Below are positions 3,264 to 17,518 of a stretch of 38,683 nucleotides of DNA, piece after piece. The DNA is from Treponema sp. GTDB lineage: Bacteria; Spirochaetota; Spirochaetia; Treponematales; Breznakiellaceae. Location: contig JAISMC010000101.1 in NCBI GenBank assembly GCA_031276965.1, forward strand, positions 1 through 38,683, read 5' to 3'. Position 1 is the stretch's first letter. The number at the start of each line of letters is the position of its first letter. The notes under the pieces were generated by a model. It worked only from the letters and a program-made list of their open reading frames with translations. It was not told the origin of the DNA and made no database searches. The position numbers were made by a program, and so were the translations under genes.

Positions 3264-5141
3264 CTAGCCTGCCGCGGGAAGACGGATCATAAAACGGCAT
3301 CCCGAGGGGCTGAGATTTTCAGCGGTAATCTCCCCGCCCATCTTTTTGACGATATTATAGGATATGGACAGGCCGAGCCCCATGTGGCCCGAAGCGCCCC
3401 GTTTGGTTGAATAGAAGGGCAGGAAAATGGACCGCGCCTCCCCGGCGGGAATGCCGGGACCGGAGTCTTCCACCGTCAGTTCCGCCATGGGGGAACTGCC
3501 CCCGGTTCTGGTCAGGAAAACTCCCATGGAGCCTCCGTTGGCCATGGCCTCAATAGCGTTCTTAAACAGATTTAAGATCACCTGCTTCATTTCGATTTTG
3601 TTTACCCGGATCAGAACGCTTGTCCGGGCGGATTGGTAATCGATGCTTATCTTCCGGTACCGGGTATTGTAGCGTACCAGGTTGATAATATCCTCCAGCA
3701 GTTCATTGAGGTCGATGGTTTCGATATCGACCCCTTCTTCATCCCCGAAGGAAATTAAATTACGGACAATGTGTTCTATGGCCTCCGCCTCGGATTCCAG
3801 CCGTTCCACCGTGCGAAAGGCATTGGATCCGGAACCGCCGCTGATTACGGGCTTTTCCAGATTCAGCTTTAAAGTATCGGTACAACTGTAGATGGCCTCC
3901 AGGGGATTGTTGATCTCGTGGGCGACCCCCGCCGCCAAAAGTCCTACGGAGGCAAGCTTTTCAGAAAAAACTATCCGTTCCCGAAGCTGCTGCTGTTCGG
4001 TAATGTCATTGATGATCAGAATACAGCCTATATACTGCAGTCCGTCCCGGATCGGCGAAAGGGTCATATCGATGATACGCCGTTCCCCGTCGAATTCCAG
4101 ACCCAAATCGTAGGCGGTGTAGGCGGCGCCCTCCGATATAGCCTTCAGCAGAGAGCGGCTTGATTCGCCGATAAGAAAATCAAGCACCTCGGTGATATGC
4201 CTGCCGAAGGAGGGCTTGTCTTCCAGATGCAGATACTCTACCGCTTCCTTATTCATCAGTTTGACAACCCCCGTATGATCCACCACCATCAGGTTTACCG
4301 GCAGCCGTTCCAGGATCGCCTCGTTGTACTTGAGAAATTCGTAGAATTCCCGGTTGATATTCCGGCGCCGGGCGTTTTCGGATATCTGGGTATAGGCAAG
4401 TTTGATAAGACTGATCTTGTCAATCTCCCGTACCGATTCGGTGATCAGCACCCGGCCGTCCCGGATAATGGTTACCCGGTCGGAAAATTCATATATGTCG
4501 TCAATCCGGTGGGTGATGAACAAAACCGAAGAACCGTTTTTTACCAGCCGCCGGAGGTGGCCGCGGATGCGCACCAGATCGTAGGCCGCAAGTTTTTCCA
4601 GGGCTTCGTCCAGGATAAGAAGCTGGGGTTCCGGGTAGAGGTGGCGTATAATGTCCACCAGTACCCGTTCCGGCAGGGAGATGTCCGCCATCTTCTTCCA
4701 TACCGGGATGGATACCTCCATGGAAGCAAAAATATCTTCCGCCGCCGAAAAGATCCTGCTGCGGTTAAAGAAAAACCGGGGAAAGACCTGGGCGCGGTTG
4801 ACAAAGAGGTTATACGCTACCGGCTGATATTGGAAAAATTCATTATCCTGGGAAACCAGCTCTATCCCCAGGTTCCTGGAGGCGTTCACGTCGGGAAGCT
4901 GGCGCTGCCGGCCTTTCCATAAAATGCGTCCTTCTTCGGGCTGGATCAGCCCGGCGAGTACTCTGGCTACGGAAGATTTTCCGGCTCCGTGCTCTCCTAC
5001 AATGGCGTGGATTTCTCCGGAGGCGATAGTAAGAGAAAGATCCTCCAGCCCCAGCAGGTTACCGTAGGAAACCCGAATTCCCTGAAGCTCTACCATGCTG
5101 CGCTCCGCAGGGAAAGGAACGGGAAATTCCTTAAATGCCAT
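3264..5141 (-). CDS. ABC-ATPase / PAS / histidine kinase fusion protein
   Basis: A 625-aa soluble sensor kinase with an unusual input module. Residues ~17-250 are an ABC-ATPase domain resembling the first domain of RbsA/MglA sugar importers: Walker A GEHGAGKSS (49-57), Q-loop Gln98, Walker B LLILDEA (174-180, Glu179) and H-loop His211. The ABC signature is degenerate (ISLPERVLVDI instead of LSGGQ). A PAS domain follows (~275-385), then a dimerisation/phosphoacceptor helix with His408 (HEINNPL) and a GHKL ATPase domain with N-box NLFKNAIEA, DSGPGI (559-564) and MGLGL (587-591). No membrane segment or signal peptide is seen. It overlaps the end of the response-regulator gene by 11 nt, so the two are translationally linked. 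An alternative start at 5096 has a better ribosome-binding site (gcggag). The partner is almost certainly the adjacent NtrC-type regulator; the signal is unknown. Confidence 0.9.
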   Translation of the reverse strand: MAFKEFPVPFPAERSMVELQGIRVSYGNLLGLEDLSLTIASGEIHAIVGEHGAGKSSVARVLAGLIQPEEGRILWKGRQRQLPDVNASRNLGIELVSQDNEFFQYQPVAYNLFVNRAQVFPRFFFNRSRIFSAAEDIFASMEVSIPVWKKMADISLPERVLVDIIRHLYPEPQLLILDEALEKLAAYDLVRIRGHLRRLVKNGSSVLFITHRIDDIYEFSDRVTIIRDGRVLITESVREIDKISLIKLAYTQISENARRRNINREFYEFLKYNEAILERLPVNLMVVDHTGVVKLMNKEAVEYLHLEDKPSFGRHITEVLDFLIGESSRSLLKAISEGAAYTAYDLGLEFDGERRIIDMTLSPIRDGLQYIGCILIINDITEQQQLRERIVFSEKLASVGLLAAGVAHEINNPLEAIYSCTDTLKLNLEKPVISGGSGSNAFRTVERLESEAEAIEHIVRNLISFGDEEGVDIETIDLNELLEDIINLVRYNTRYRKISIDYQSARTSVLIRVNKIEMKQVILNLFKNAIEAMANGGSMGVFLTRTGGSSPMAELTVEDSGPGIPAGEARSIFLPFYSTKRGASGHMGLGLSISYNIVKKMGGEITAENLSPSGCRFMIRLPAAG

Positions 5142-6444
5142 ACTGCTTCATCTTTTTGTACAGGGTAGAACGGCTCATGGAAAGGCGCTCGGCGGTACGG
5201 ACCTTGTTATTGCCCTCTTCCTCCAGGGTCCGGGCAATGCAGTCCATCTCCGCCATTTCCAGAGGATTGGCGCCCTTTCCCCTTCGCCCGGCAATCAGAC
5301 GGGGAAGATCCGAAACCTGTATGACCCTGCCCTCCGAAACGGCGCAGGCATAGTAGACGGCCCCCTTCAATTCCCGGATATTTCCAGGCCAGCCGTAATC
5401 CATCAGGACCCCGGCGGCGGAAACCGACAGCGCCTGCCGGGGACAGCCGTTTTCTTTGGCATAATCGGCGGTAAAACGTTCCGCCAGGGGGATGATGTCC
5501 CCCTGACGTTCCCGGAGGGGCGGCAGATGGAGTATCGCCGCATTCAGCCGGTAAAGGAGATCGCTGCGGAATTTGCCCTCCGCGGTAAGGGCCCCCAGAT
5601 CCTTGTTGGTGGCGGTGATGAACCGGACATCTACCTTAAAGGTTTCCCTGCCCCCCACCCGGCGCACCTCCTGATTCTGCAAAACCCGGAGTATCTTTGC
5701 CTGGCTCGAAAGGCCCATATCGCCGATTTCGTCTAAAAACAGGGTTCCCCCGTCGGAACGTTCAAAAATGCCGGGGAAACGTTCAACGGCGCCGGTAAAA
5801 GCGCCCCGTTCATGGCCGAAGAGCTCGCTCTCCAGCAGAGATTCGGTAAAGACCGCGCAGTTAACCCGCTGCAGGGGATTTGCCGCCCGGGGAGATGCGG
5901 CGTGAATCAGCTCCGCCAAAAGCTCCTTGCCGGTTCCGCTCTCCCCGCAGATAAGTACGGGCATGGTGGTGGCCGCCAGTTTCCGGGCCCGAGACAGAAT
6001 ATCCCGTACCACAGGAGACTTGCTGATCATCGCCGTTTCCGCGGAACAAAACAGGCGGCTTTCTTGTTCCGGCCGGAACACGCGCAGGGCGTTCTCCATG
6101 GTTTTAAGCAGTTTTCCTATTTTGATAGGCTTCTGCAGATAGTCAAAGGCGCCCTGCTTTATTGCCTGTACGGCGGTTTCAACCGTTCCGTAACCGGTAA
6201 TGAGGATCACCGGCAGGGAAGGATCAAGCTCAAGAATACGGGGCAGCAGGAAGACTCCGTCTTCACTCCCCAGGCGCACGTCCAGCAGCACCACATCCTG
6301 TTTCGCTTCCCGGAGCGCCCGCAGGGCGCCCGTGGAATTGTGGGCCACGGACACCCGGAAATTCCGCATACTGAGACTCTCCCGGAGGCTGTCGCAGAGA
6401 GGAAGATGATCGTCTACTATCAGGACCGAGGAGCCGGTGTCCAT
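5131..6444 (-). CDS. NtrC-family sigma-54 response regulator
   Basis: A 437-aa activator. The receiver domain has D11/D12 and phosphoacceptor D55 (VVLLDVRLG). The AAA+ domain has Walker A GESGTGKE (167-174), the sigma-54-contacting loop GAFTGA (214-219), Walker B GGTLFLDEI and an arginine-finger region (FRSDLLYRL). The C-terminal Fis-type helix-turn-helix (~408-437) ends with SRSTLYKKMKQYGI. It is first in a two-gene operon with the ABC-domain kinase and diverges from the sugar ABC transporter, whose promoter is sigma-54 type; that transporter is the obvious target. A ribosome-binding site (aaggag) lies 11 nt upstream. An 18-bp dyad in the divergent region is a candidate binding site. Confidence 0.95.
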   Translation of the reverse strand: MDTGSSVLIVDDHLPLCDSLRESLSMRNFRVSVAHNSTGALRALREAKQDVVLLDVRLGSEDGVFLLPRILELDPSLPVILITGYGTVETAVQAIKQGAFDYLQKPIKIGKLLKTMENALRVFRPEQESRLFCSAETAMISKSPVVRDILSRARKLAATTMPVLICGESGTGKELLAELIHAASPRAANPLQRVNCAVFTESLLESELFGHERGAFTGAVERFPGIFERSDGGTLFLDEIGDMGLSSQAKILRVLQNQEVRRVGGRETFKVDVRFITATNKDLGALTAEGKFRSDLLYRLNAAILHLPPLRERQGDIIPLAERFTADYAKENGCPRQALSVSAAGVLMDYGWPGNIRELKGAVYYACAVSEGRVIQVSDLPRLIAGRRGKGANPLEMAEMDCIARTLEEEGNNKVRTAERLSMSRSTLYKKMKQYGI

Positions 6445-6476
6445 TTTTCGTACAACTCCTTGTGCAGTGTTTGAAT

Positions 6477-6506
6477 ATTATACATCGTTATTCCGGGAAA
6501 ATGTAA
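6477..6506 (-). promoter_or_regulatory. Sigma-70 promoter of the two-component operon
   Basis: On the minus strand, TTACAT (6506-6501), an 18-bp spacer and TATAAT (6482-6477) precede the regulator gene by about 32 nt. The dyad at 6517-6534 lies just upstream of this -35, so the regulator could also control its own synthesis. Confidence 0.6.
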
Positions 6507-6516
6507 AATTTTTTCG

Positions 6517-6534
6517 ACCGGCGTGAATGCCGGT
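6517..6534. promoter_or_regulatory. Candidate upstream activator site (dyad)
   Basis: ACCGGC-N6-GCCGGT is a perfect 6+6 inverted repeat in the divergent intergenic region. It is centred about 90 bp upstream of the predicted sigma-54 start, a usual distance for NtrC-type activators. That the neighbouring regulator binds here is inference. Confidence 0.5.
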
Positions 6535-6587
6535 AAGTCTGGTAACATCTTTTGACAGATACTGCGGTTTCCTGCATCATCCCGGAT

Positions 6588-6604
6588 TTGGCATGATTCT
6601 TGCA
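6588..6604 (+). promoter_or_regulatory. Sigma-54 (-24/-12) promoter of the sugar ABC operon
   Basis: TTGGCATGATTCTTGCA matches the RpoN consensus: GG at 6590-6591 and GC at 6602-6603 with exactly 10 nt between them. The predicted start is near 6615, giving a leader of only ~10 nt that contains GAGGA (6616-6620) ahead of the ATG at 6625. A GAFTGA-type activator is encoded divergently next to it. Confidence 0.85.
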
Positions 6605-6624: not shown

Positions 6625-8184
6625 ATGCCGAATTTACTGCGGATAGAACATATCGAGAAAAACTTCGGGGGCATCAGGGCGCTGCGGGATGTAAGCTTTA
6701 CCATCGAAGCGGGCAAAGTATGCGCCCTTATCGGAGAGAACGGAGCGGGGAAAAGTACCCTGGGCAAGATTATCGCCGGAGTTGAACGGGCCGACAGCGG
6801 CGCCCTGTTTCTGGCGGATCAGGAGTATAGTCCCCAGAACCCCCTGGAAGCCCAGCGCCAGGGGGTGGCCATGATATTCCAGGAACTGGATCTGTTTCCA
6901 AACCAGAGCGTGGCGGCGAACCTTGCCCTGGGCAACCTGGAGTTGATGGATAAAAAACAGAAGCTGGTAAACCGGCGTATTCTGGAAAAAGCGGCCCGGC
7001 CCTGGCTGGAAAAAGTGGGGCTTAACATCGGCTCCGATATTCCCCTGGGTTCCCTGCCTATCGCCCACATACAGCTGGTGGCCATAGCCCGGGCCTTGAG
7101 CATGAATACCCGGCTCATCGTGATGGACGAACCCACCAGCGCCCTTACCGGGGAAGCGGCGGAGATCCTCTTTTCCGCCATCGAAAGACTTACCGCCCAC
7201 GGGGTAACGGTGGTGTACGTTTCCCACAAAATGGACGAGATCTTCCGCATCGCCCATTCCATCGTGGTCATGCGGGACGGGGAATATATCGGTACCCGGC
7301 TGAAACCGGAAACCAATGTCAACGAAATTATCTCCATGATGGTGGGCCGCAGTTTCGAGACCGGCTCCCGGCGGGCCGCCCATACCACCGAAAAAAACCT
7401 GCTTGCGGTCCGGGACCTAAATACGAAGAAGCTCTCCGGCATTTCCTTTGAACTTAATGAGGGGGAGGTGCTGGGCATTGCGGGGCTGGTGGGATCGGGG
7501 CGTACCGAATTGGGGCAGGCCCTCTTCGGCCTGGACTATGTACGGCGGGGAGAAATGACCGTGAGGGGCCGTCCCTACGCGCCCCGCTCCCCCCGGGACG
7601 CCATGAAGGCGGGGCTGGGGCTCATCCCCGAGGATCGCAAAAAAGAGGGGCTCTTTATCCAGCAGTCGGTGTCGGATAATATGGCCATCTCTATTATGGA
7701 AGAGAATCAGCGCCTGGGCTTTATACGCCAGGAGGCCGTAGCCGCCCGGGTAACGGACATGATAGGCAAAACCCGGCTTAAGACGGCGAATGCCCGGGCA
7801 AGCGTCAATACCTTGAGCGGCGGGAATCAGCAGAAGGCCCTGGTCTGCCGCTGGCTCATGGTGGACCCCGCCATCATCTTTCTGGACGATCCGACCAGGG
7901 GGGTCGATGTGGGGGCCAAGGAAGATATTTACGAAATCATTGAAACCCTGGCCTCCCGGGGCAAGGGCATACTTTTCGTCAGCTCGGAACTGCCGGAGCT
8001 TCTGCGCTGCGCCAACCGGATCATGGTACTCTATGACGGCAGGATGGCGGGCATTGTGGACACCCAGGAAACGGATCAGCAGGAACTTATGCGGCTCGCC
8101 ATGGGATACGGGACCGCTAAAACCCCGGATAAGGCTTCCGGCGGTTCACCAACAACAACGGAGGCAGCCGGAAATGGGCGCTAG
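6625..8184 (+). CDS. Sugar ABC transporter, tandem ATP-binding protein (RbsA/MglA family)
   Basis: A 519-aa protein with two ABC domains, which powers import of a pentose, hexose or similar sugar. The first domain has Walker A GENGAGKST (37-45), a signature-like segment LPIAHIQLVAIARAL and Walker B LIVMDEPTSAL. The second has the family's altered Walker A (GLVGSGRTEL), a true LSGGNQQK signature and LDDPTRGVDVG, where Asp replaces the usual catalytic Glu. First gene of an operon with permease (11-nt overlap) and binding protein, under the sigma-54 promoter. The substrate cannot be read from sequence. Confidence 0.95.
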   Translation: MPNLLRIEHIEKNFGGIRALRDVSFTIEAGKVCALIGENGAGKSTLGKIIAGVERADSGALFLADQEYSPQNPLEAQRQGVAMIFQELDLFPNQSVAANLALGNLELMDKKQKLVNRRILEKAARPWLEKVGLNIGSDIPLGSLPIAHIQLVAIARALSMNTRLIVMDEPTSALTGEAAEILFSAIERLTAHGVTVVYVSHKMDEIFRIAHSIVVMRDGEYIGTRLKPETNVNEIISMMVGRSFETGSRRAAHTTEKNLLAVRDLNTKKLSGISFELNEGEVLGIAGLVGSGRTELGQALFGLDYVRRGEMTVRGRPYAPRSPRDAMKAGLGLIPEDRKKEGLFIQQSVSDNMAISIMEENQRLGFIRQEAVAARVTDMIGKTRLKTANARASVNTLSGGNQQKALVCRWLMVDPAIIFLDDPTRGVDVGAKEDIYEIIETLASRGKGILFVSSELPELLRCANRIMVLYDGRMAGIVDTQETDQQELMRLAMGYGTAKTPDKASGGSPTTTEAAGNGR

Positions 8185-9220
8185 GATCATCGAATTTTTC
8201 AAATCGCGGCGGAAGCTGCTCTTTACTGTGGGGAACTTTCAGCAGGTTATCGGGCTGGTGCTGCTCTTTATCATCGCGGCAATAATAAGCCCCGTGGCCC
8301 ACCGGACCGGCCAGAACATCTTCCTTTCCGGGGCGAATTTAACGGACATCATGCGGCAGGTTTCGGAGAAGGGGATCATCGCCCTGGGCATGACCTTTGT
8401 GATCCTCACCGGCGGCATCGACCTCAGCGTCGGATCGGTGCTGGCCCTGTCGGCGACCTTTACGGCCAATACCCTTACCAACTGGAAGACCGATATGTCC
8501 TGGCCCATGGAGATCTGCGTGGTCATCATCATGGCCCTGGCGATCTGCACCGCCTTTGGAACCCTCCAGGGAACCCTCATCGCCAAACTCAAGGTCCAGC
8601 CCTTCATCATCACCCTGGCGGGGATGATCGGCATCCGGGGCTTCGCCCGCTTTCTTACCACCAACGCCAACATCGACATAGGCTTCGGGGATGATATTTC
8701 CTCCCTCTTTGCCAAGACCATACAGAACAAGACCATCGTCATCGCCGCCTTTGCGGCGCTGGCGCTGATCTTCGGCGTCATCCTGGCCAGAACCGTCTTC
8801 GGTCTCCAGGTAAAGTCCGTGGGGGACAATCCCGTGGCCGCCCGTTATGCGGGGCTCCCGGTAACAAAGACCTTGATTTACACCTACGCCATCTCCGGCT
8901 TTCTGGTGGGTATCGCCGGCGTTCTTCACTGCGCCCAGAACCACCAGGGGAACCCCAACGACGGGGTTTCCTACGAGCTGGACGCCATCGCGTCGGTAGT
9001 CATAGGGGGTACCAGCATGTCCGGGGGCAAGGGGACCATCACGGGAACGATCATCGGCGCCTTCATCCTGGGGATCCTAACCAATATTTTCCGTCTCAAA
9101 GGGGTAGACATAAACGTGGAGATGATGTGCAAATCGGTGATTATCGTCATCGCCGTCTGGCTTCAGATGCCCCGCAAAGCGAAGGGCGCCGCCAAGAAGC
9201 AGAGCGCAGGCAGGAACTAA
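8174..9220 (+). CDS. Sugar ABC transporter permease (RbsC family)
   Basis: A 348-aa polytopic inner-membrane protein. The start at 8174 (MGARIIEFFKSRR) is chosen because GAGG lies 9-12 nt upstream and because sequence before it in this frame only repeats the end of the ATPase gene in another frame. Hydrophobic segments run from about residue 22 to 335. Family blocks include GIIALGMTFVILTGGIDLSVGS near the first third and GGTSMSGGKGTITGTIIGA in the C-terminal part. It overlaps the ATPase gene by 11 nt, implying translational coupling, and is followed 40 nt later by the binding protein. Confidence 0.95.
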   Translation: MGARIIEFFKSRRKLLFTVGNFQQVIGLVLLFIIAAIISPVAHRTGQNIFLSGANLTDIMRQVSEKGIIALGMTFVILTGGIDLSVGSVLALSATFTANTLTNWKTDMSWPMEICVVIIMALAICTAFGTLQGTLIAKLKVQPFIITLAGMIGIRGFARFLTTNANIDIGFGDDISSLFAKTIQNKTIVIAAFAALALIFGVILARTVFGLQVKSVGDNPVAARYAGLPVTKTLIYTYAISGFLVGIAGVLHCAQNHQGNPNDGVSYELDAIASVVIGGTSMSGGKGTITGTIIGAFILGILTNIFRLKGVDINVEMMCKSVIIVIAVWLQMPRKAKGAAKKQSAGRN

Positions 9221-9260
9221 CCGGTCCTGGACCGGCTAAACATATTTTTTGGAGGAGAAC

Positions 9261-10220
9261 ATGAAAAAGTTTTTACTGGTTGCTGTGGTATTGTTGATGG
9301 CAGCCTCCCTGGTTTTCGCAGCGGGGCAGAAAGGAGGAAGCGGCAAAAAGCTGGTTATCTTCAGCCAGTGCAACAACGCCGAGCCCTACCGGGCGGCGCA
9401 GAACGCCTCATTCCAGCAGCTCTGGGGCCAGTATCCCGAGGTCCAGTTTGAGATCATGGACGCCCAGCAGGATAACTCCACCCAGGTTTCCCAGATTGAA
9501 ACGGCGATACGCCGCAGTCCCGACCTCTTGATCGTGGCCCCCAACGAAAGGGCGCCCCTTTCGGACGTTATGGGCAAGGCCAAGGCCGCCGGTATCCCCG
9601 TTATCTGTCTTGAGCGGGATATTGTGGATCACAACAACTTTGATACCTGGATCATGTCCGACAACCGGGCCATAGGAAAACTGGCGGGCGAATTCATCGT
9701 CGATTTCCTGACCAAAAAGTACGGAACCCCCAAGGGAAACGTGGTTGACATGCAGGGCCTCCTCGGCGTGGAAGGCGAAGAGAACCGGCGGGAAGGGGCC
9801 TGGGATGTGCTTAGGCAGTATCCCAATATCAAGCAGGTTGCCAAGGCCGAAGCCAAATGGCTTCAGTCCGACGCCCGGGACCGGATGACCGAAATTCTCC
9901 GCGTCCAGCCCCAGATCGACATACTCTACGGCCACAACGATCCCATGGCCATAGGCGCCTACCTGGCCGCCCAGGAACTGGGCCGGGAGAAGGAGATGAT
10001 CTTCATCGGCGTGGACGGCCTTAACGGCGAAGCCGGAGGAATCAAAAAGGTAATCGACGGCGTCCTTGCCGCCACCTTCATCTATCCTCCCTGTACCGAA
10101 AAAGCGGTGGAGATTGGCTACAAGATGATAAGCGATCCCGGCTTCAAACCCGAAAAACAGTACGAAGTTAAGTCCCAGATGATCACCATCGAGAACGCGC
10201 AGCAGCTTTACAAGCCGTAA
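9261..10220 (+). CDS. Periplasmic sugar-binding protein (RbsB-like)
   Basis: A 319-aa exported binding protein of the periplasmic-binding-protein 1 / LacI-like fold. The ATG at 9261 follows GGAGGAGAAC directly; an upstream in-frame TTG at 9249 overlaps that ribosome-binding site and is rejected. The signal peptide is residues 1 to ~20 (MKKFLLVAVVLLMAASLVFA). Typical blocks are ETAIRRSPDLLIVAPNE, AGIPVICLERDI, MSDNRAIGKLAGEF, YGHNDPMAIGAYLAA and FIGVDGLNGEAGG. Last gene of the transporter operon, ended by a hairpin-T-run terminator. Ligand unknown. Confidence 0.94.
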   Translation: MKKFLLVAVVLLMAASLVFAAGQKGGSGKKLVIFSQCNNAEPYRAAQNASFQQLWGQYPEVQFEIMDAQQDNSTQVSQIETAIRRSPDLLIVAPNERAPLSDVMGKAKAAGIPVICLERDIVDHNNFDTWIMSDNRAIGKLAGEFIVDFLTKKYGTPKGNVVDMQGLLGVEGEENRREGAWDVLRQYPNIKQVAKAEAKWLQSDARDRMTEILRVQPQIDILYGHNDPMAIGAYLAAQELGREKEMIFIGVDGLNGEAGGIKKVIDGVLAATFIYPPCTEKAVEIGYKMISDPGFKPEKQYEVKSQMITIENAQQLYKP

Positions 10221-10240
10221 TTTTTACCGGAATCTGCCAT

Positions 10241-10270
10241 AAAGGGACTGTCTCTGACGGTCCCTTTTTT
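10241..10270 (+). terminator. Intrinsic terminator of the sugar ABC operon
   Basis: AAAGGGAC (10241-10248) and its complement GTCCCTTT (10260-10267) form an 8-bp stem around an 11-nt loop, running into a T-tract, 20 nt after the binding-protein stop codon. Confidence 0.8.
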
Positions 10271-10300
10271 ATGACCCTCCGGTGTATTATACTATACATG

Positions 10301-13478: not shown

Positions 13479-14972
13479 CTAATAGTACACCAGATTTTCC
13501 CGAAGCACCCATCCGGCGTTTCCCTCCGCAGACTCCACGTAGACCCAGGAATCAGCCTCAGCCCGTACCGCGGCGGGTAACCCCTCGGGAAAACGGAAAT
13601 CCTCCGCCCCCAGAACATCGGGTACCCGGTATGCCGCGCAGGCCCGGAGAACTGCCCTAGGGGTCCGGTCCAGGAATCTGTCCGCAAGGCCCGCCAATCC
13701 CGTCAAGAGGACCAGCGCCGGCACTGCTATTATGTACTTATAACCCCGGGAAAGGCCGGAGGTTACCCGTTTTTTCAGCCTGGCTGTTCCCAGAACACCC
13801 AGGGGGATCAGGGCGGCAATGCTTATCAAAAGGAGGAATACCGGGGGCCGCCGCTTCTCGTCCTCCGTATCTTCTATGCCCAGCGCCTGTTCCGCTTCCC
13901 GGCGGAGGGGTGTCAGGGTAAAACCGGCAAGATGATCTCCTTCATTTTTACGGAGCAGCGCCAGGGCTTCGGGGCGGCGGCCCTGATCCCACAGAGCCCG
14001 GGCTGCCCCGGCGTTACGCCGGTATGCGTTCCGGAATAAAAGGGGCGGCGATCTTTCGGGAAAGGGTCCGGCGGCCCTGCCGGAATCCGCCGCCAAAACT
14101 CCGGCTTCCGCTCCGGCGGCGGATTTTGGCCTGGAAACGGCGCCGGGCGGAGGATCCGCCGCTTCGCTACCGGTCCGGCCGGCAGCGGCTGGACCCGTTT
14201 CCGGTTTACCCAATACGACCCGGAGGCGGATACCGGGAATATTCAGATTAACGCCGCTATAGTGGACATGGGGAAAGACCAGAGAAAGATCCGCCCCCTC
14301 CAGGGGAATGATTCTGAGGCGGAAGACGACTCCCCGTTCCGCCTCCGGGGCGGAGACCGGCAGTTCCTCAAGCACCGCCTGTTCCATTACCGCCAGGTTA
14401 AGGGGAAAGCTGCCGGACCGGGGCAGCCGGGGGTCCCAATCGGAAAGGACCAGAGCCAGTTCCGCCCGCTCCCCCGTTTTAAGTTCCAACCCTTCCCCAA
14501 GGGGCTCCGGCGAAGACAGTAATTCCCACCGCAGCCGGGGCTTGTACTCCCGGTCAACTCCGTCCTCCCAGCGGACCCGGAAAACCAGAGGCGATGTACG
14601 GGCCCGGTTATCGGGGGTGATAATTTCAAAAGCATTGAGGAGAAATTCTCCGGCCCGGTTCGGAATAAAGGTAAATTCCACCGCTGTCCACCGTTCATTG
14701 GAGGCCCACCGGGCCAGGCGGGACTCGGTACGGACCCGTTCCAGGCTAAGCGCCGGAGGCAGCTCCGGGGGACGGACCGTAACCTCCGGCGGAACCGGAT
14801 GAGCCACCAGGATCGAAACCGTCCAAGGGGCGCCGCGGATGGGATTTTCGGGAGAAGTCCATACCAGTACCGAAAGGTCCTTTCCGTACAGGGGAAGAGA
14901 ACAGAGTAAGAGAAGGCCTAATAATCCGGACCTAAAGAAGAATCCGCCTCGGTCCATTCCCGGCTTTTCCAT
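13479..14972 (-). CDS. BatD-like membrane protein with C-terminal SH3-like region
   Basis: A 497-aa exported, membrane-anchored protein. A signal segment (FFFRSGLLGLLLLCSLPLYG) is followed by beta-rich, Ig-like stretches typical of BatD. Then come a Pro/Ala-rich linker, two hydrophobic helices (about residues 373-395 and 408-430) and a C-terminal tail ending in WVYVESAEGNAGWVLRENL, which resembles a bacterial SH3 domain. The start is supported by AAGGAG 8 nt upstream and gives a 55-nt overlap with the preceding TPR gene. Last gene of the Bat operon. Assignment rests mainly on operon position and topology. Confidence 0.7.
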   Translation of the reverse strand: MEKPGMDRGGFFFRSGLLGLLLLCSLPLYGKDLSVLVWTSPENPIRGAPWTVSILVAHPVPPEVTVRPPELPPALSLERVRTESRLARWASNERWTAVEFTFIPNRAGEFLLNAFEIITPDNRARTSPLVFRVRWEDGVDREYKPRLRWELLSSPEPLGEGLELKTGERAELALVLSDWDPRLPRSGSFPLNLAVMEQAVLEELPVSAPEAERGVVFRLRIIPLEGADLSLVFPHVHYSGVNLNIPGIRLRVVLGKPETGPAAAGRTGSEAADPPPGAVSRPKSAAGAEAGVLAADSGRAAGPFPERSPPLLFRNAYRRNAGAARALWDQGRRPEALALLRKNEGDHLAGFTLTPLRREAEQALGIEDTEDEKRRPPVFLLLISIAALIPLGVLGTARLKKRVTSGLSRGYKYIIAVPALVLLTGLAGLADRFLDRTPRAVLRACAAYRVPDVLGAEDFRFPEGLPAAVRAEADSWVYVESAEGNAGWVLRENLVYY

Positions 14973-15517
14973 TGGCTCTGCTCCTTTTCGCGGATATACT
15001 CGAAGAGGGTTTCATTTTTCCCGCCCCCGGATATCTTTACCGGCGCTTCCGCCTCCGCTCCGGCCCGGACCAGGGAGAGGAGACTTAACTCCAGGTTCCG
15101 TTTTGCCTCAAGGCGGCTGCCATCAAGCTCCAGGGCGCCCCTAAACTGTTCCGCCGCTTCGATATAGTCTCCCTTCTCAAAACAGATCACCCCCGTATTG
15201 TAACGGATCCGGTACAGCAGTTCCCGGTGGCTTTCCAGGGGCAGAAACTTGAGGGCTTCCTCCGCCGCGGCAAAACGTTCCTGGGCGGCGTTCCCTTCGT
15301 TAAGGGAGAGGTACACCAGCGCAAGGCCGTATTCCCCATAGGGTACGGCCTGGGGAAAGCGGAGCGATTCCGTATAAGAAACGATGGCTTTGGTATAGAG
15401 GCCCCGGGAATGAAAAAAATTCCCTTCCATAACGAGGAGCCGCCCTGAAAAGCGGGAACAGCTTCCCAGCAGGAAAATTCCCCAGAGCAGGCGCCGGAGT
15501 TTACTCTTTCCTGCCAT
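14918..15517 (-). CDS. TPR lipoprotein of the Bat cluster (BatE/BatC-like)
   Basis: A 199-aa protein with a lipobox-like N-terminus (LLWGIFLLGSC; lipidated Cys probably at residue 19), followed by tetratricopeptide-like helices (GNFFHSRGLYTKAIVSYTESL; YNTGVICFEKGDYIEAAEQFRGALEL). It probably scaffolds the vWA proteins at the periplasmic face. A ribosome-binding site (ggagaaagg) precedes the ATG. It overlaps the upstream vWA gene by 17 nt and the downstream BatD gene by 55 nt. Bat naming differs between spirochetes and Bacteroides, so no symbol is given. Confidence 0.75.
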   Translation of the reverse strand: MAGKSKLRRLLWGIFLLGSCSRFSGRLLVMEGNFFHSRGLYTKAIVSYTESLRFPQAVPYGEYGLALVYLSLNEGNAAQERFAAAEEALKFLPLESHRELLYRIRYNTGVICFEKGDYIEAAEQFRGALELDGSRLEAKRNLELSLLSLVRAGAEAEAPVKISGGGKNETLFEYIREKEQSQWKSREWTEADSSLGPDY

Positions 15518-16520
15518 ATCCTTTCTCCAAAAATTTCGCTATCCCCAGGGCGGCAAGACCGGCGATAACAAAGAGATGCCACTGGGGCCGGGGCTCCCGC
15601 CGGTAACCCCGGGCGGCTTCGGCGGCGCCGGAGGATGTAAGATAGTCTATCAGAACCGGCACAGCGTCACTTCTGTTACCGTCGACATAGAGACCGCCGG
15701 TCCGTTCCGCGGCGCTGCGCAGGGCTCCGCTCCGCAGGCTGCTGAACACCGGGGCGCCGCCCTCGTTCTGGAGAAAGTCTCCGCCCATGGGAACCGGCCC
15801 CCCCGCTTCGGAACCAAGCCCCAGGGCAATTACCCGGATGTCCGCTGCCTTGGCCCGGTCAAGGGCGGCGTTCAAGGAACCCGACAGGGGCTCCCCATCG
15901 GAAAAGAGGATGATCTCCCGGCGGGCCGGCAGCGTATCCTGAAAGGCGGAACAGGCGGCGTCCAAAAGCTTTTCCAGATTAGTTCCCCTGCCGGTAATGG
16001 CGGAACCGGACAGCGCATTGAGGAAGTTGATTACCGCCTCGGTGTCACCGGTTAGGGGAACCGCCAGAATGCCGCTTCCCTTACCTATGGCAACGCCAAA
16101 GCGTATCCCCGGAGAAGCGCTTACCAGCTCCCTGGCCACCGCCGCCCCCCGGTCCATCCGGGAGAGACCCTCTCCGCCGGAGGTCTTCAGAGACGGGGAC
16201 AAATCCTGTACATCCATGCTGCGGGACAGATCCAGAGCCAACACCACATCAATCCCCCGGCGTATCTCCGGGACAACCCTGGTTCCCCAGCGGGGACCGG
16301 CGAGGGCGGTAATCATCAAACATAAAAAGAGGACAAAGAAAAAAAGTGAAAAAATAAACCGGAGGCGGATCTCCCGGACTCCCCCCGCCGGGGCAGAGCG
16401 GGACAGGAGGACCAGAAGGCTCCGGCGCCGGTAATAATGCAAAGAGGCAAAACCGAAGGCGGGGATCACGATAAAAAGGATAAAGAGAAGCCGGGGATTG
16501 TCAAAACCTGCGCCTTTCAT
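15501..16520 (-). CDS. vWA-domain membrane protein (BatB-like)
   Basis: A 339-aa protein with two N-terminal hydrophobic segments (about residues 10-27 and 50-70), a von Willebrand A domain and a final transmembrane helix (WHLFVIAGLAALGIAKFL). The metal-binding MIDAS motif is intact as DLSRSMD, with FSDGEPLSG further on. It overlaps the preceding vWA gene by 4 nt (ATGA type). In Bat systems paired vWA proteins are thought to work with a MoxR ATPase in envelope stress or protein maturation; the exact substrate is unknown. Confidence 0.88.
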   Translation of the reverse strand: MKGAGFDNPRLLFILFIVIPAFGFASLHYYRRRSLLVLLSRSAPAGGVREIRLRFIFSLFFFVLFLCLMITALAGPRWGTRVVPEIRRGIDVVLALDLSRSMDVQDLSPSLKTSGGEGLSRMDRGAAVARELVSASPGIRFGVAIGKGSGILAVPLTGDTEAVINFLNALSGSAITGRGTNLEKLLDAACSAFQDTLPARREIILFSDGEPLSGSLNAALDRAKAADIRVIALGLGSEAGGPVPMGGDFLQNEGGAPVFSSLRSGALRSAAERTGGLYVDGNRSDAVPVLIDYLTSSGAAEAARGYRREPRPQWHLFVIAGLAALGIAKFLEKGYGRKE

Positions 16521-17518
16521 AACAGCGCCCCCAGAACATAACGGCGGACAAAGCGGGCAAAGCAGAGGAGAATCAACGCGGCGATGATAAGGGGCCGGTG
16601 AACAGAATGGGTCTTCGTTAAAAGTCCGGAACGGCGGATGATCATTTCCCCCTCGTGGAGACGGGCAAAGGCTGTGGCAAAGGCCTTGGCGGAGGGCGCT
16701 GACAAATAGGTTCCTCCGGCCCTTTGGGCTATGGTCTTGAGGTTTTCCGGCTCAAAGCGGGAATAAAAGGAACCGGTTCGGCGCATTCTGGTACGGGGAT
16801 CTACATAATCAATGGGAACTTCTCCGCTGCTGCCCACGCCGATTACCCAGAGGGAAATTCCTTCCTCCCGCAGGACCGCGGCGGCGGTTTCAGGATGCAC
16901 CGGTCCCGCATTATTTTCCCCGTCGGTAATCAGCACCGCCACCTTTCTGGGGGCGGAGGATTTTCGTATATGCAGGGCCGCTACCGACAGGCCAAGCCCC
17001 AGGGCAGTACCGTCTCCCATCTCAGCGATGTGCAGGCTCTGAAGCCGGGAATTAAAGGCCTCCCTGTCCACCGTGGGGGGAACCAGCAGGGCCGCGCTGT
17101 CCCCCACCGCTACCAGTCCCACGGCATCGGAGGGCCGTTCCCGGGCAAAAGCGGCGACCAGGTGCCTGGCGGCATCGAAACGGTTTATACCGTCCATGTC
17201 GATCCCCGCCATGCTGGGGCTCACGTCCACCACAAAAATTACGTCCGCCCCCCGGTTAAGCCACACCGTTTCGGATCTGATCAGATAGGGGCCGGAGGCG
17301 GCAATAAAGAGGAGCAGCGTCCCCGCCAGCTCCATGATAAAGATCAGCCTGATAAGCAACTCCACCTTAAAGGGAGGAACAAAGGGAGTTCCGCCGGGGG
17401 GACCCAAAGGTATTTTCAAGGCGAAGGGATCCTTTACAAAGCGGTTAATCCCCAGGATGAGAAATCCCGCCAGTACCGCCAGGAGGATCAGCAGGGGCCG
17501 TTCAAAACTGAGGCTCAC
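16517..17518 (-). CDS. vWA-domain membrane protein (BatA-like)
   Basis: A 333-aa protein with the same plan as its downstream neighbour: N-terminal membrane segments (LLILLAVLAGFLILGI; LIFIMELAGTLLLFIAA), a vWA domain with MIDAS DVSPSM and ITDGENNAG, and a C-terminal hydrophobic helix (PLIIAALILLCFARFV). Four-nt overlaps at both ends show tight translational coupling across the operon. Confidence 0.88.
   Translation of the reverse strand: MSLSFERPLLILLAVLAGFLILGINRFVKDPFALKIPLGPPGGTPFVPPFKVELLIRLIFIMELAGTLLLFIAASGPYLIRSETVWLNRGADVIFVVDVSPSMAGIDMDGINRFDAARHLVAAFARERPSDAVGLVAVGDSAALLVPPTVDREAFNSRLQSLHIAEMGDGTALGLGLSVAALHIRKSSAPRKVAVLITDGENNAGPVHPETAAAVLREEGISLWVIGVGSSGEVPIDYVDPRTRMRRTGSFYSRFEPENLKTIAQRAGGTYLSAPSAKAFATAFARLHEGEMIIRRSGLLTKTHSVHRPLIIAALILLCFARFVRRYVLGALL

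Follow-up and report, generated by a model that had tools for sequence, protein, structure and literature searches.

A candidate sigma-54-dependent two-component circuit linking an ABC-domain histidine kinase to a CUT2-type sugar importer in Spirochaetota

CbrA/CbrB and CrbS/R are SLC5-STAC transporter-kinase systems (PMC9100948, PMC13022988, PMC6296734), and in the BceAB-BceS modules an ABC transporter controls a histidine kinase (PMC3023708, PMC11109136). NifA, as cited in PMC6296734, binds an upstream activator sequence of the form TGT-N10-ACA. The spirochaete sigma-54 literature that we found is mostly about Borrelia and Leptospira. The locus described here resembles each of these systems in part. 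Like CbrA/CbrB and CrbS/R, it fuses a transporter-derived domain to a PAS/histidine-kinase core, and like CbrA/CbrB it pairs the kinase with a sigma-54 activator that would control carbon uptake. As in BceAB-BceS, an ABC transporter would act together with a histidine kinase as a single sensing unit. Its predicted TGT...ACA palindromes upstream of a -24/-12 promoter, next to the gene of a sigma-54 activator, recall NifA sites as far as the citing paper describes them.

The window, by which we mean the whole stretch of 38,683 bases that was analyzed, is part of a 2.7-Mb assembly (G000:C162), and the nearest related module was found in a Treponema MAG. On the minus strand, the gene of a histidine kinase (3264-5141) overlaps that of an NtrC-type response regulator (5131-6444). 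The latter encodes a receiver with an invariant Asp55, a sigma-54 AAA+ domain with a GAFTGA motif and a Fis-type HTH (PF00072; PF00158, 7e-64; PF02954; alignment A2); its best NCBIfam scores are to AtoC and NtrC, all of them below the curated cut-offs. On the plus strand, an importer operon encodes a CUT2-type double ABC ATPase of the RbsA/AraG-like kind (6625-8184; two PF00005 stretches, and NCBIfam), a CUT2 permease (8174-9220; BPD_transp_2, PF02653, 1e-44) and, as its last gene, a sugar-binding protein (9261-10220; Peripla_BP_4 in Pfam).

Using the neighboring kinase gene as a marker, we located related modules in relatives and in GTDB genomes. The combination of kinase, NtrC-type regulator, tandem sites and CUT2 importer recurs across Spirochaetota, and most loci come from Spirochaetota MAGs. 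Single contigs with the module are labeled Bacteroidia, KSB3, Opitutae and Poribacteria, which could reflect transfer or mis-binning. Assembly UASB270 holds at least 5 copies (L096, L098, two on L104, and L116); on L104 (scaffold_14), two ABC-kinase/NtrC modules lie side by side at 6659-9803 and 14197-16850. For the comparisons of promoters and binding sites, we used 38 control regions, namely, that of the window and those of 37 related modules, which divide into a main group of 31 (including the window) and a sister group of 7.

A soluble kinase with an importer-type ATPase domain

We characterized the kinase by Pfam, NCBIfam, hydropathy, motifs, a tree and an AlphaFold model. Pfam recognized an N-terminal ABC_tran domain (about residues 16 to 260) together with PAS, HisKA and HATPase_c domains, and it gave no match to an SLC5 or STAC domain. 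No membrane helix was predicted (the maximum 19-residue hydropathy average was 1.34), which by hydropathy separates this protein from membrane-embedded sensors of the BceS type. The phospho-acceptor H408 and residues N524, N528, D559, G561 and G563 of the N and G boxes are invariant in the 37 kinase sequences. The AlphaFold model (80.5 pLDDT, pTM 0.45) confirms the ABC fold, which it models with confidence, and the kinase domains, but its inter-domain arrangement is unreliable.

By NCBIfam, the ABC domain of the kinase resembles CUT2 sugar-importer ATPases. In the tree, all 37 kinase ABC domains formed one clade (100/97), placed among the NBD1 and not the NBD2 domains of the linked importers. 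These domains keep Walker A (GEHGAGKS), the Gln of the Q-loop and Walker B, and they have lost LSGGQ, with LSLPER-like sequences in its place. Because the signature loop of the LSGGQ type is replaced, we regard the domain as ABC-derived but do not class it as a transport ATPase. A search of open-access full texts returned no description of an ABC-ATPase histidine kinase, a negative result that carries little weight. We also weighed T. denticola AtcS as a possible relative; the abstract describing it mentions no ABC fusion.

Since the kinase has no membrane or periplasmic part, it can see the outside only indirectly. We compared evolutionary distances across 24 loci by partial Mantel tests. Distances between the ABC domains correlated with those between the linked permeases after correction for the regulator and the kinase core (r = 0.40, p = 0.001), and the kinase core showed no such relation to the permease (r = -0.01). 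The correlation was similar without the importer subfamily of the window (n = 19, r = 0.37), and it was not significant after four further loci from two clades had been dropped (n = 15, r = 0.10, p = 0.29). This co-variation is suggestive, and shared inheritance can mimic such a signal. Together with the ancestry of the domain, it makes it conceivable, at close to an even chance in our judgment, that the ABC domain lets the kinase read the importer. In the most specific form of this proposal, which we put forward tentatively, a soluble kinase with a captured importer NBD would act as a decoy ATPase on the permease, read its conformational cycle and switch the operon on via the NtrC-type activator at tandem TGT-N11-ACA enhancers.

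Alternatively, the cue for the ABC domain might not be the importer but, for example, the ATP/ADP ratio or a ligand in the cytoplasm, or the domain might only dimerize, with the PAS domain sensing a metabolite. This explanation, which touches only the sensing step, is a serious one that we nonetheless hold to be somewhat short of probable. Retention of the Walker motifs with loss of the LSGGQ signature, as in a nucleotide-binding regulatory domain, and the presence of the PAS domain are in its favor, but it leaves aside that the kinase is genetically linked to CUT2 importers throughout, that its ABC domain is closest to importer NBD1 and that the distances of this domain follow the permease more than those of the kinase core do.

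The control region between regulator and importer

Upstream of the importer, the first-pass annotation had proposed a sigma-54 promoter with GG and GC at the required spacing and a leader of only about 10 nt. The element TTGGCATGATTCTTGCA (6588-6604, plus strand) bears this out: its GG (6590-6591) and GC (6602-6603) have the standard GG-N10-GC spacing, and it ends 20 bases before the importer ATG at 6625, with a start predicted at ~6615. No other sequence in the window matches TGGCAYRN4TTGCW exactly, and the 2.7-Mb genome has 12 such matches in all; the element scored 18.4 with a consensus matrix that gave nothing else in the window a score above 11. An rpoN gene, whose absence from the genome had been named as a ground for refuting the promoter, was found (PF04552, 2.5e-53, at C157:8536-9003). 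At one mismatch, a scan of the genome showed no excess of sites (34 versus 55 in a reversed control), so the own-genome scan was limited to exact matches.

We then took the best site of each of the 38 control regions. A -24/-12 site scoring 12.5 bits or more preceded the linked importer in all 38, with the GG conserved in 38 and the -12 GC in 37, and in 34 of them it was the top site of its own locus. Elsewhere, 21 sites reached 12.5 bits in 1.1 million strand-bases, which corresponds to ~0.004 expected per 200 bp. Because the density elsewhere is so low, chance is a negligible explanation for 38 of 38, even though the best site was picked in each region. One locus outside this set (L106) contains the module without a good sigma-54 site. 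Given the rpoN gene and the conserved position, the element at 6588-6604 is almost certainly the real promoter of the importer operon.

Other exact sigma-54 sites in the genome lie directly 5' of two genes that we read as encoding sigma-70-family factors (L006, G000:C79; L009, G000:C96), an arrangement that recalls the RpoN-RpoS cascade of Borrelia. Further exact sites precede an ammonium-transporter-like gene (L013, G000:C184) and an Hsp20-like gene (L004, G000:C40). All four identities were read from the translations.

Binding sites of the regulator were sought with a custom-written, unpublished palindromic ZOOPS-EM motif finder, which was given the 31 regulator-to-promoter regions. It returned gTGTatAAaatTTatACAc, a motif of width 19 with a score of 163, versus 29 to 44 in eight shuffled sets. 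Two such 19-bp palindromes of the form TGT-N11-ACA stand in tandem in the window, ~30 to 31 bp apart, and constitute a predicted proximal site, GTGTTTGAATATTATACAT (6467-6485), and a predicted distal site, GTGTCCATTTTTCGTACAA (6437-6455). With a hold-out matrix whose training set left out both the window and L087, the closest relative, as a guard against circularity, the proximal site ranked first (15.9 bits) and the distal site second (12.2 bits) in the whole 38,683-base window, the next score being 10.7. In leave-one-out scans of the loci (8 to 39 kb), the control region contained the top-scoring position of the whole locus in 27 of 31 cases, and the site at 6467-6485 again ranked first in the window. 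A second site with p <0.05 was present in 23 loci and lay 30 to 34 bp from the first in 20 of these. The pattern TGTNYN(W5)NRNACA occurs at 6 places in the genome of the window; two of these form the tandem pair, and the remaining four stand alone.

The proximal site contains a perfect TATAAT of the regulator gene (6477-6482, minus strand), and the distal site overlaps its start codon (6442-6444). The motif overlaps a TATAAT-like -10 in the divergent loci, where part of its AT-rich core could represent a promoter constraint. Taken by itself, this position in most loci, together with a copy retained at the regulator's start in L110, where the importer promoter lies elsewhere, would suit a pair that serves only as an operator for autorepression, the importer being activated via other, unrecognized sites. 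We consider this unlikely, however. In L105, L109, L110 and L119, the importer promoter does not adjoin the regulator gene, and a copy of the motif still stands upstream of the sigma-54 site, as the best or second best of its locus (in L109, it lies 366 bp upstream of the importer promoter, outside the region first searched). Because it is kept upstream of these displaced promoters, the motif is not merely the -10 or the ribosome site of the regulator gene. Furthermore, no other conserved palindrome reached a comparable score in the EM search. The TGT-N11-ACA pair is therefore best read as a tandem enhancer of the importer operon, a role that conservation makes very probable.

Where the genes are divergent, this enhancer would also act as an operator for autoregulation. 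The idea that one site activates the transporter and represses the regulator, advanced earlier for a different dyad, is plausible at the TGT-N11-ACA pair, over the -10 and the start codon. The sigma-70 promoter that had been assigned to the regulator held up in its TATAAT but not in its -35, for which we found no acceptable sequence, and a promoter scan did not list it.

Two side observations concern related control regions. The sister-group regions L068, L070 and L080 contain, by inspection, dyads resembling TGTGCC-N6-GGCACA (TGT-N12-ACA), a hint that the specificity of the enhancer has shifted there. In L087 (L062 4810-5200), the regulator-promoter region is longer and has extra inverted repeats between the enhancer and the promoter, for example, GCTTTTCCAA-N10-TTGGAAAAGC.

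Between the enhancer and the sigma-54 site lies a sigma-70-like sequence, TTGACA-N17-CATCAT (6552-6580, plus strand). If this putative rival promoter were the main driver of the importer, the sigma-54 site would be secondary or silent. Its 10 of 12 consensus matches, its good spacing and the longer leader that it would provide count for such an arrangement. Judged by eye, however, the region of L087 has no visible counterpart, whereas the sigma-54 site is kept in all 38 control regions. We rejected this sequence as the main driver, a role that appears quite improbable; it may still act as a basal promoter in addition to the sigma-54 site.

The first-pass annotation had further taken a perfect ACCGGC-N6-GCCGGT dyad, ~90 bp upstream of the predicted start, for the activator site. 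The dyad is exact (6517-6534), its center is ~90 bp from ~6615 and it is the sole exact copy in the window. The genome holds 5 exact copies, of which the other 4 are all within ORFs. Perfect 6-bp dyads with a gap of 0 to 10 are expected 0.53 times per shuffled 215-bp region (probability of at least one, 0.38), and at the window's own density those with a gap of 4 to 8 number 0.42 per 180 bp. Conservation in relatives had been named as the check, and at up to 2 mismatches the dyad was found in none of the 30 other main-group regulator-to-promoter regions, L087 included, whose regulator is 75% identical to that of the window with a nearly identical recognition helix (alignment A2). That the dyad activates the importer and also represses the regulator is most improbable: although perfect, suitably placed (-90) and the only exact copy outside ORFs in the genome, it is of a kind expected by chance ~0.4 to 0.5 times per region, has no match even beside an almost identical recognition helix and yields to the TGT-N11-ACA motif, which tops its own locus in 27 of 31. 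On the grounds of chance expectation and lack of conservation, we rejected it as a conserved enhancer; it is probably due to chance or the site of another factor.

The importer operon and its substrate

An intrinsic-terminator-like hairpin with a T-run (10238-10273, plus strand; -18.7 kcal/mol, z = -5.2) separates the importer operon from nagA. A simple scan for terminators missed this hairpin, perhaps because the T-run forms part of the stem. As this hairpin follows the binding-protein gene, nagA/nagB probably form a separate unit, and scans of the relatives' loci gave no matches to nagA/nagB. Both results weaken the proposal that nagA/nagB belong to the operon and that the importer hence carries amino sugars. 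NCBIfam and PDB were considered as guides to the substrate and yielded resemblance below threshold only. Among PDB sequences, the binding protein came closest to 2x7x, an entry deposited as a 'sensor protein' and not as a transport protein.

The proposed circuit and its relation to known systems

We propose the following circuit. First, the sigma-54 promoter at 6588-6604 would drive the importer operon (ATPase, permease and binding protein). Second, the divergently encoded NtrC-type regulator would bind the palindromes at 6437-6455 and 6467-6485, ~3 helical turns apart and 140 to 170 bp upstream of the start; once phosphorylated, it would form an AAA+ hexamer at the pair and loop onto the sigma-54 polymerase. 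Strong sequence conservation speaks for these two steps. Third, since both the -10 and the start codon of the regulator gene lie under the pair, binding would also limit expression of the regulator and the kinase, an autoregulation that the overlap makes reasonably likely. Taken as a whole, these three steps probably describe a local two-component circuit controlling a CUT2-type sugar ABC importer. Fourth, the kinase, whose ABC domain is related to the first nucleotide-binding domain of the importer, would most likely dock on the importer permease, replacing the latter domain or sitting beside it, and would phosphorylate the regulator in response to substrate-loaded or transporting states. For this last step, domain ancestry, gene linkage and modest co-variation allow us a tentative proposal, at slightly less than an even chance.

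If true, a soluble kinase that has only the ATPase domain of an importer would be a third, modular design beside the CbrA fusions and the BceAB-S complexes. A kinase that reads the importer predicts physical contact between the two, which is directly testable. The enhancer motif offers a concrete target for mutation and predicts the targets of the circuit across spirochaetes.

Each of the known systems differs from this locus in a defined way. In CbrA, a whole membrane symporter is fused to the kinase, whereas here the fusion comprises a soluble ABC ATPase domain only and the membrane part would be the separate importer; SLC5-STAC kinases such as CbrA combine a membrane symporter with STAC, and by hydropathy and Pfam, the kinase of the window has neither. 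For CbrB, non-palindromic subsites have been reported (PMC6296734), unlike the tandem palindromes predicted here. Compared with NifA sites, again as cited in that paper, the spacer is 11 and not 10, two sites lie ~31 bp apart and the activator belongs to a two-component system. The regulator has the receiver, AAA+ domain, GAFTGA loop and Fis-type HTH of the NtrC/AtoC/ZraR family but scores below its curated NCBIfam cut-offs and has another sensor partner and another target. Finally, the kinase BceS is a membrane protein in its own right, which interacts with a whole transporter and responds to peptide antibiotics, whereas the kinase described here is soluble by prediction, itself bears an ATPase-like domain and has genetic links with a sugar importer and a sigma-54 activator.
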